DNA of 64,000 bases from Helicobacter pylori (GTDB lineage Bacteria > Campylobacterota > Campylobacteria > Campylobacterales > Helicobacteraceae): the NCBI RefSeq assembly GCF_900120335.1, contig NZ_LT635477.1:186001-250000 (forward strand), given 5' to 3'. Of this stretch, positions 28,616 to 49,377 are shown in pieces; position 1 is the first letter of the stretch; each line of letters opens with the position of its first letter. The translations under genes were made by a program, and so were the position numbers. A model generated the notes under the pieces. That model ran no database searches, was not told where the DNA came from, and saw nothing but the letters and a program-made list of their open reading frames with translations.

Positions 28616-29368
28616 CTAAAGCTCTATTTTTAATTCCTTGAGAGCGTCGCATGCTTCTTTAACGCTTGATTTGCAGCCTTTTTTAAAGTTTTCTACCGCT
28701 TGCTTTTCGTCCTTTGCTGTACCTTGAGCGTTGTATTGCATAACCCCTAAATTATAACACCCCCTACCATCTTTTAATTCGCATGCTTTAGAATAACGAA
28801 CGATAGCCTCCTTAAAATTCTTTGCCACACCATACATGTATCCTGCATTAATACACCCGGGGCTGTCTTTTAAATCGCAAGCTTTTTCATACAAATCAAG
28901 AGCCTTTCTTAAATCCTTAGGCGTGCCTACGCCATAATGGTGTAGGCTTCCCAATACCGTGCACCCTTCAGCATGGTTCAATTCACAAGATTTAGAGTAA
29001 TATTGTGAGGCTTTTTTGGCGTCTTTAGAAACGCCTTGTCCGTTATAGTATAAATTTCCTAGTAGGCGACACCCATAACCATCATTTAATTCACAACCTT
29101 TAGTGTAAAATTGAATGGCTTTTTTCAAGTCTTTTCCCACTCCTTTCCCTTCTTCATAAAACGCCCCTAAAAAAACACACCCAAAACCTTCTTTTAACTC
29201 ACACGCTTTTTCAAAATGCGCTTTAGCTTGAGCGAAATCTTGTTTCTTCACGCTTTCTATACCTAAATTAACAAGTTCTTTAGCGTCTGGCTCTGCCATT
29301 AACCCTCTTAAACACAACGCGCCCAAACACAAGACCCCAAAAAGGGTTTTTTTAACACTCCCTAGCAT
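28616..29368 (-). CDS. hcpA: Sel1-like repeat secreted protein HcpA
   Basis: A 250-residue cysteine-rich secreted protein. A signal peptide (about 1-25, [18 protein letters not shown]...GLMA) is followed by Sel1-like repeats. There are six Cys-x7-Cys pairs, such as CELKEGFGC and CELNDGYGC, each stapling a helix pair by a disulfide. H. pylori Hcp proteins of this kind are exported, immunogenic, and HcpA was reported to bind beta-lactams. A second family member, hcpE, is at 56 kb in this window. It has its own TATAAT at 29410-29405. Its partner in the cell is not known. Confidence 0.92.
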
Positions 29369-29404: not shown

Positions 29405-29410
29405 ATTATA
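29405..29410 (-). promoter_or_regulatory. Predicted -10 box for hcpA
   Basis: A perfect TATAAT on the minus strand, 36 bases before the hcpA ATG and downstream of the candidate RNA terminator. It shows hcpA need not depend on the promoter at 29.66 kb. Confidence 0.6.
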
Positions 29411-29461
29411 ATCAAATATTGACGATTAAAGCCTTATTAAATGCCATTTTATTGGTGAAAT

Positions 29462-29648
29462 AAAAAAATAATTGAGAATTGCTTCTCTTTTAAGCGCGTT
29501 CCAACGCTTGATCTGGATTGCCATGCGATAGGGGATACTAGTGAGAAGCTGTATTAAAAGAGTTTGTTTTAAAAAGTTGATTGAGCCACCCCTTTAAGAG
29601 TGGCTTGGTAAAAACCTCTTAAGAAATTCACCAAAGGTTGCAAAATGG
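29462..29648 (-). ncRNA. Candidate small RNA with consensus promoter and terminator
   Basis: About 187 nt transcribed from a near-perfect promoter at 29683-29655. The sequence contains a 7-bp hairpin GCCACTC/GGGTGGC with a 6-nt loop at about 29585-29604, and a UUGGU/ACCAA pairing just before it. It ends in the stem GAGAA/TTCTC with a GCAA loop at 29474-29487, followed by AATTATTTTTTT. No ORF with a ribosome site lies inside; the best is a 32-codon frame that runs through the terminator. I considered tmRNA, RNase P, 4.5S and 6S RNA and saw none of their diagnostic sequences. It could instead be a long leader of hcpA. Confidence 0.65.
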
Positions 29649-29654
29649 GGAGAG

Positions 29655-29683
29655 ATTATAGCAAGCTTTGGTTATTTTGTCAA
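29655..29683 (-). promoter_or_regulatory. Consensus sigma-80 promoter of the candidate RNA
   Basis: TTGACA at 29683-29678 and TATAAT at 29660-29655 on the minus strand, with exactly 17 bases between. A full -35 consensus is rare in this genome, where most promoters have only a recognisable -10. It faces away from dapE into a stretch with no ORF. Confidence 0.8.
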
Positions 29684-29814: not shown

Positions 29815-30981
29815 TTATTTTTCGCTCAAATCCTCCAAAACCCCCAAAAACACTTTTTCTAAAAGCTCTAATTCCTTCAAGCTCACCCTTTCATCAATGG
29901 CATGGATCCTGTCATTAATGGTGCCAAATTCCACCACTTCTATGCCATGAGCGCTAAAAAATCGCGCATCGCTCGTGCCGCCTTTGGTGTTTAAAAGGGG
30001 GGTGGTGCGACATGTTTTTAAAATATTTTCTTGTAAAACGCTGGTAAGCTTTGAATGAGAAGCCGTGATGAAAGGCGAACTGCTTGATTCTAATTCTAAA
30101 GTATAAGGCAAATCTTTCAAAACCTTTTCTAAATATTCTTTCAAACTCTCTTGGGTGGTTTTTAAAGAATGGCGCGTATTAAAGGTAATTTCTACGCTCG
30201 CTGGAGTCACATTATTAGCCCCTAACCCTGCATGCAAGTTGGTGATGACTAATTTTGAAGGGTCAAAACACTCATCGCCATTGTCTAAATGAACTCCTGA
30301 AATTAAGGGCAAAACCGAAGCGAGCGTATCAATAGGGTTTTGGCATTTTTGCGGGTAAGCCACATGCCCTTGAACGCCTTTTAAAATGAGTTTGCCATTA
30401 ATGGAGCCTCTTCGGCCAATTTTGATGCTATCGCCTAAGACTTTTTCGCAAGTGGGTTCAGCCACAATCGCCATATGGGGCAGCAAATCCTTTTCTTTGA
30501 GTTTTTCTAGCATGAGCTTAGTGCCAAAAATCCCTGGTCCTTCTTCATCGCTCGTGAGTAAAATAGAAAGCAAAAAAGGGGTTTTAGGGTTAAAATTTAA
30601 ACTCGTGCTCAAAAACGCCCCCACGCCCCCTTTCATGTCTTGCGCCCCACGGCCGTATAAAAACCCTTCTTTAATGATGGGCTTAAAGGGATCGCTTTGC
30701 CAGTTGTTCCCAGGAGGCACGACATCAATATGCCCTGCAAAGCAAAAATGCAAGGGCTTAACATTTTCTTTTACATGCTTTTCTTTTGCATGTTCTTTTT
30801 CTGCATGTTTTTTGAGGGGGTTAAAAATGCGGTATAAAAAAAGGTTTTTCACGCCATTTTCCCCACACTCTAGGGTTTTAAAAGTAGGAAAAAGCGATTT
30901 AATGTATTCAAAAATACCGCATTCTTTGGGCGTAATGGTGGGGTAGCTGATGAGCTTTTGGGTGATTTCTAAAGCGTCCAT
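29815..30981 (-). CDS. dapE: Succinyl-diaminopimelate desuccinylase
   Basis: A zinc M20-family hydrolase that releases diaminopimelate for lysine and peptidoglycan synthesis. The 388-residue protein has the metal ligands in [19 protein letters not shown] (catalytic and bridging Asp) and TSDEEGPG (catalytic Glu). The GTSDARFF segment near the C terminus lies at the active site. A charged insertion (about 55-75, H/K/E-rich) consists of three 5-residue repeats and is not part of the usual fold. It lies 11 bases after mnmG on the same strand, so the two are probably co-transcribed. Confidence 0.95.
30771..30815 (-). repeat. Imperfect 15-bp repeats in dapE
   Basis: Three imperfect 15-base units on the minus strand encode a run of H-A/V-K/E pentapeptides ([15 protein letters not shown]). 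The frame is preserved, so copy number would change only the length of a charged surface loop. Confidence 0.65.
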
Positions 30982-49302: not shown

Positions 49303-49377
49303 TGGCTCCAGATGTAGGATTCGAACCTACGACCAAGCGGTTAACAGCCGCCTACTCTACCGCTGAGCTAATCTGGA
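49303..49377 (-). tRNA. tRNA-Asn (GTT)
   Basis: A 75-nt cloverleaf with encoded CCA. The acceptor stem is TCCAGAT/ATCTGGA, the D-loop is AGCTCAGCGGTAGAGT, the anticodon loop CTGTTAAC has GTT at positions 33-35, and the T-loop is GGTTCGAATCC. It reads AAC and AAU codons. Confidence 0.97.

Follow-up and report, generated by a model that had tools for sequence, protein, structure and literature searches.

The intergenic stretch between dapE and hcpA of Helicobacter pylori probably holds the conserved gene of a stand-alone noncoding sRNA, ~187 nt long and here called RNA1. From its sequence, RNA1 is predicted to be a trans-acting RNA that pairs with mRNAs by means of a conserved linker. The stretch belongs to a window of 64,000 nt (NZ_LT635477.1, 186,001-250,000) from a genome of 1,667,712 bases, labelled G000 below. 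Most likely, RNA1 serves as a regulatory sRNA in its own right in H. pylori and the surrounding clade. Its promoter and core are conserved in ten genomes, and a sister core, RNA2, is found in the same genome; thus, RNA1 would add a two-member RNA family. We infer that both RNAs are transcribed, RNA1 from its consensus promoter to near position 29462, and the ends of both are likewise predicted. The A/C/U-rich linker common to RNA1 and RNA2 would be the part that binds targets. The features are collected in Table 1.

Table 1. Predicted features of RNA1 and its neighbours (window coordinates)
Feature	Position	Strand	Remark
RNA1, predicted small RNA, ~187 nt	29462..29648	-	promoter, terminator-like end, conserved core
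Promoter TTGACA-17-TATAAT, TG preceding -10	29655..29683	-	exact pattern match, conserved in ten copies
5' leader, variable between copies	29624..29648	-	identity 0.18
Helix A 5' arm, AGAGGUU	29613..29619	-	
Hairpin GCCACUC..GGGUGGC	29585..29604	-	
Linker UCAAUCAACUUUUUAAAACAAACUCUUUUAAUAC, conserved, common to RNA1 and RNA2	29551..29584	-	
Helix A 3' arm, AGCUUCU	29544..29550	-	overlaps GCUUCUC (29543-29549), alternative partner GAGAAGC
GAGAAGC, alternative partner of GCUUCUC and terminator stem 5' arm	29481..29487	-	
Terminator-like stem GAGAA-GCAA-UUCUC and T-run	29462..29487	-	stem paired in 10/10 copies
-10 element TATAAT before hcpA	29405..29410	-	region identity 0.86
hcpA (Sel1-repeat protein), gene downstream of RNA1	28616..29368	-	
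dapE (M20 peptidase), gene upstream of RNA1	29815..30981	-	

The gene name hcpA is taken over from the initial annotation; the names dapE and dapB and the HP numbers were assigned from gene content. By E-value, the hcpA product is closest to PDB chain 1ouv_A. Gene order and orientation (dapE-RNA1-hcpA) are identical in all ten copies of RNA1, the window's included; in the divergent genome G017 (L010), the hcpA site is occupied by hcpA relatives, two hcpA-like frames of ~62% identity lying 3' of RNA1.

The initial annotation was built around a full consensus promoter on the minus strand, which is present and as rare as had been claimed: the exact pattern occurs once in the 64-kb window, compared with 0.01 expected from the mean of shuffles, and three times genome-wide. 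Looser matches are near chance, with 16 in the window at up to two mismatches (10.2 in shuffles) and 20 in the genome at up to one mismatch (12 for a reversed control pattern). It had further been argued that such promoters are typical of stable RNAs. Among the 20 genomic sites, three (L071, L073 and L085) are followed by a tRNA after 22, 13 and 17 nt, and 14 overlap a long frame, counting a spurious 101-codon frame at the RNA1 site; the rule is therefore fair, not strict. L071 is one of the other two exact matches, and the second, L072, lies opposite a long frame. Across the ten RNA1 copies, the -35 element reads TTGACA in eight and TTAACA in two, and the -10 element reads TATAAT in seven and a one- or two-base variant in three. 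The promoter is exact in five copies and present with small variants in all ten. On sequence evidence, RNA1 has a promoter of its own, as an intergenic sRNA should.

The ten copies come from a search at the DNA level in 34 Helicobacter genomes, 11 of which matched; the match in G006, 26 bases inside a coding frame, was judged to be chance. Mean identity among the copies is 0.86 in the promoter versus 0.18 in the 5' leader, and further along the predicted transcript it is 0.70 in the hairpin region, 0.79 in the linker, 0.80 in the middle and 0.70 in the segment after the middle. The hcpA promoter and 5' UTR reach 0.86. Six of the ten leaders contain UGCUCCU, a word absent from the window's copy; in G024 (L008), a tandem AATTTATTTA repeat makes the leader longer. 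A lack of conservation of promoter and terminator among strains had been named as the observation that would speak against a noncoding RNA. The promoter is retained in 10/10 copies and the terminator stem pairs in 10/10; over its full extent, the terminator region is conserved no better than the spacer behind it (0.64 vs 0.66), which weighs against RNA1. The noncoding-RNA reading survives this comparison and is, by the sequence, partly supported.

It is quite improbable that the locus is ordinary intergenic DNA, in which a chance consensus promoter stands before a conserved but functionless remnant. The near-chance frequency of looser promoter matches, the mild fold and the frequent alteration of leader and RNA2 agree with that explanation; it sits poorly with a promoter kept across ten genomes while the adjoining leader fell to 0.18 identity, with compensatory changes in helix A and with the existence of a paralogous core.

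This paralogous core, RNA2, was found at 537.7 kb of the window's genome by a DNA search of that genome and by a pattern search. RNA2 lies on the strand opposite dapB, heading towards the dapB 3' end, and in the window's genome it heads no gene. It carries its own TTTTTGCTATAAT and has in common with RNA1 the linker and, after it, the UAUCCC segment, with a different hairpin at the same place. A third candidate core at 866 kb, with three mismatches and within a coding frame, was judged to be chance. The comparison of RNA1 and RNA2 cores used 16 of 20 listed stretches (L038, L039, L040 and L043 were left out, and L035 was missed by the pattern), and a later core set kept 14 of those 16, two being dropped as repeats.

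A genus search with the RNA2 region matched 15 of the 34 genomes, two of them (G001 and G007) over short stretches only, leaving 13. For G016 and G021, the half with the promoter is shown apart from the RNA2 alignment, which comprises 13 of 15 rows. The core is intact in seven of the 13 genomes (G000, G019, G023, G024, G025, G026 and G028) and broken or shortened in the other six; RNA2 is thus dispensable there, which weighs against the reading of RNA1 as a functional RNA. The 3' part is lost in G018 and G022, the end in G020 and the promoter side in G027. In G016 and G021, the core is in two pieces at separate places on opposite strands (G016:C1:712629-712759 and 759110-759279; G021:C1:571903-572025 and 616790-616960; together L046, L041, L047 and L042). 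The pieces of each pair lie ~45-47 kb apart, as if an inversion had broken inside the RNA gene. In G028, the core is complete with a foreign flank in place of the dapB end (L038), and a stretch resembling the dapB 3' end occurs ~3.5 kb from RNA2 (L014). At the start of RNA2 (L031) is a near-perfect hairpin, CTAACTAAAAT..ATTTTAGTTAG. In several genomes, its loop contains CTCCTTTT. Read on the opposite strand, this hairpin precedes GCTTTATT or TTTTATT and could act as a terminator.

The search for further copies employed a sequence-only model of the core common to RNA1 and RNA2. With this model, both RNAs were found in G000, G019, G020, G023, G024, G025, G026 and G028, RNA1 with a partial RNA2 in G021, RNA1 alone in G017, and a single or partial RNA2 in G016, G022 and G027. 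At E<=1, the model gave a match in 34/34 genus genomes, of which the weaker ones, after a gap, were judged to be chance; a match in G007 (E 1.8e-4) was judged by eye to be chance. At E<=0.1, matches occurred in 92 of 121 family genomes, the best outside the genus (E 0.001) again being judged chance. A scan of named genomes gave five matches, none in Helicobacter and all judged chance, in a set from which near genomes may be missing.

The structure of RNA1 was considered next to its sequence conservation. RNAalifold applied to the ten cores recovered the 7-bp hairpin GCCACTC..GGGTGGC and the terminator stem, both present as the initial annotation described them. The stem GAGAA-GCAA-TTCTC spans 29487..29474 and is followed by T7 at 29468..29462. 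It is weak, with two G-C pairs; the terminator scan requires three, so the stem is unlisted. Exchange between G-C and A-U occurs among the copies with pairing kept in 10/10, and 20% of permuted partners are as good as the native ones in a test that ignores relatedness. The fold of the 187-nt RNA is mildly better than that of shuffled sequences (z -1.80, with 9 of 200 shuffles as good; z -0.78 for the opposite strand), and this lack of unusual stability weighs against RNA1.

A longer-range pairing, helix A, was found by hand comparison of its arms, and its pairing counts use hand-set registers. Its seven positions are paired in 5, 10, 9, 10, 10, 10 and 9 of the ten copies, with changes on both sides at three well-paired positions. 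Without set registers, helix A ranks first of 324 six-base window pairs (the 5' arm against the two segments compared), with 93% paired. When partners are permuted among copies, 0.9% of permutations are as good as the native arrangement, in a test that ignores relatedness. Covariation across Helicobacter had been proposed as a check; among the ten copies, both helix A and the terminator stem show compensatory changes. A conserved structure of the kind expected of an intergenic sRNA is present, and single-sequence folds agree for helix A in half of the copies (G028, G026, G019, G020 and G017), showing no such preference in G000, G025, G023, G021 and G024. That the window's own sequence is among the latter counts against RNA1. 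Another helix suggested by RNAalifold, AAGGG:UCCCU, was rejected: permuted partners are as good in 80% of cases, with the native no better, and one pair has a both-side change in three copies. In the ranking without set registers, its windows fall below helix A and lack both-side changes.

In the window's sequence, GCUUCUC favours GAGAAGC over its partner in helix A. As the 3' arm of helix A has this second possible partner in the 5' terminator arm, RNA1 could switch between two folds, one with helix A and one with GCUUCUC:GAGAAGC. This alternative outperforms helix A in the same permutation (0.06% vs 0.9%, relatedness again being ignored), a further point against RNA1 as read here. It is strong in G000, G025 and G023 (-10.9 kcal/mol) and fair in G021 (-7.5 kcal/mol); the remaining six copies have a weak version (-1.9 to -3.7 kcal/mol). 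The alternative helix and the terminator stem exclude each other in the window's sequence because GAGAA is common to both, and the competitor is strong in three to four of the ten copies.

These pairings raise the alternative that the stretch is a regulatory leader of hcpA, in which stopping at the weak terminator or reading through is set by three overlapping helices (helix A, GCUUCUC:GAGAAGC and the terminator). In every copy, RNA1 precedes hcpA on the same strand; in the window, 93 bases separate the T7 end (29462) from the hcpA start codon. The mutual exclusion of two of the helices, the weakness of the terminator, the strength of GCUUCUC:GAGAAGC in the window and two relatives, and native partners of that helix that beat 99.94% of permutations would all suit such a leader. 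We nevertheless regard it as unlikely, since hcpA retains a promoter region of its own (identity 0.86), with a TATAAT at 29410..29405 as the separate -10 that had been annotated, the competing helix is weak in 6/10 copies, and RNA2, convergent to dapB, is the leader of no gene in the window's genome.

RNA1 as a stand-alone sRNA was also compared with known RNAs. Rfam assigns it to no family, in agreement with the initial annotation, which by eye had matched it to none of the common RNAs. At gathering thresholds, the whole window yielded only a tRNA (49306-49377), and a permissive scan of the RNA1 stretch gave a lowest E of 1.5, with no family match to a riboswitch or other cis element. RepG (HPnc5490) and NikS (HPnc4160) are intergenic or short structured H. 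pylori sRNAs that act in trans and are not known to involve Hfq. RNA1, likewise intergenic, has C/U-rich words in the leader of several copies; it differs in having a paralogue elsewhere in the genome. RepG is reported to target a leader sequence rich in G (PMC8322730). The same review states that few H. pylori sRNAs have been analysed in detail and that 60 intergenic RNAs were validated by Sharma et al. 2010 (PMC8322730). RNA1 may already be in that catalogue; a search of open papers, the primary sRNA catalogue aside, yielded no publication about an RNA in the HP0211-HP0212 interval. The action of H. pylori sRNAs is little known. RNA1, with its consensus promoter, paralogue and compensatory helix, offers a concrete target for a knock-out, and the linker common to both RNAs offers a concrete starting point in the search for targets.

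6S RNA was rejected on location. In both H. pylori and C. jejuni, its gene is reported to be located upstream of purD, and the C. jejuni RNA measures 185 nt (PMC3847290). RNA1 is similar in predicted length (187 nt) and in its strong promoter, but in 10/10 copies hcpA or a relative follows where purD would be expected. The 6S model of Rfam gave no match to RNA1, a result that would count if the model detects the 6S RNA of H. pylori.

Coding potential was assessed in the same ten copies. The initial annotation saw no plausible ORF in the ~187 nt; there is in fact a 32-codon ATG frame (29524..29426), which is not conserved. Five copies have ATG as its first codon, whereas four read ATA and one GTA there; no Shine-Dalgarno word directly precedes the ATG, and its 3' part and end differ in frame between copies. 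As is usual for an intergenic sRNA, RNA1 shows no conserved coding frame. The frame opens with basic residues (MAIQLKR..), recognisable in most copies, followed by hydrophobic ones. For these recurring first residues, conservation at the RNA level is the only explanation we can offer. Such a frame could be what remains of an mRNA for a small membrane peptide, for instance that of a type I toxin whose start signals have been lost. The layout also recalls the toxin mRNAs of the genus, which combine a 5' hairpin, a small frame and alternative folds (PMC6733600). RNA1 is similarly structured, with a 5' hairpin and alternative folds, and has C/U-rich words complementary to Shine-Dalgarno sequences. 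It differs in lacking an AapA peptide, a conserved start codon and significant DNA similarity: none of nine AapA1 matches in the genome (E up to 10) falls at RNA1, the best E to aapA loci by DNA is 0.05, and Pfam gives no match for the frame. An aapA/IsoA locus was rejected on these grounds and on the start signals, and with varying frame ends as well, a decayed toxin mRNA is very unlikely.

The aapA mRNAs were also considered as targets. The RNA1 leader contains CAUGCUCCU in three relatives, the exact complement of AGGAGCAUG, a mark of aapA start sites. If RNA1 and RNA2 formed a two-copy trans-acting family that holds down aapA toxin mRNAs, they would provide a general RNA guard alongside the locus-specific IsoA antitoxins; this idea, drawn from sequence complementarity, is a long shot. 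The window's RNA1 lacks UGCUCCU though the genome has nine aapA matches, and G020 carries the word but no aapA match. Duplex energies do not clearly separate aapA from the 52 gene starts of the window: with the window's RNA1 leader, 38% of the 52 starts are at least as good as the median of nine aapA starts. The figure is 12% with the leaders of G025 and G019 (against starts of the window's genome, not their own), 23% with the RNA1 linker, 33% with the RNA2 leader and 4% with the RNA2 linker. In ten genomes, the complement followed by a start codon, AGGAGCATGNNATG, was counted 29 times (reversed control, 0), and 23 of the 29 sites adjoin an AapA match and are aapA starts. Such a combination of Shine-Dalgarno word and start is thus found almost exclusively at aapA genes.
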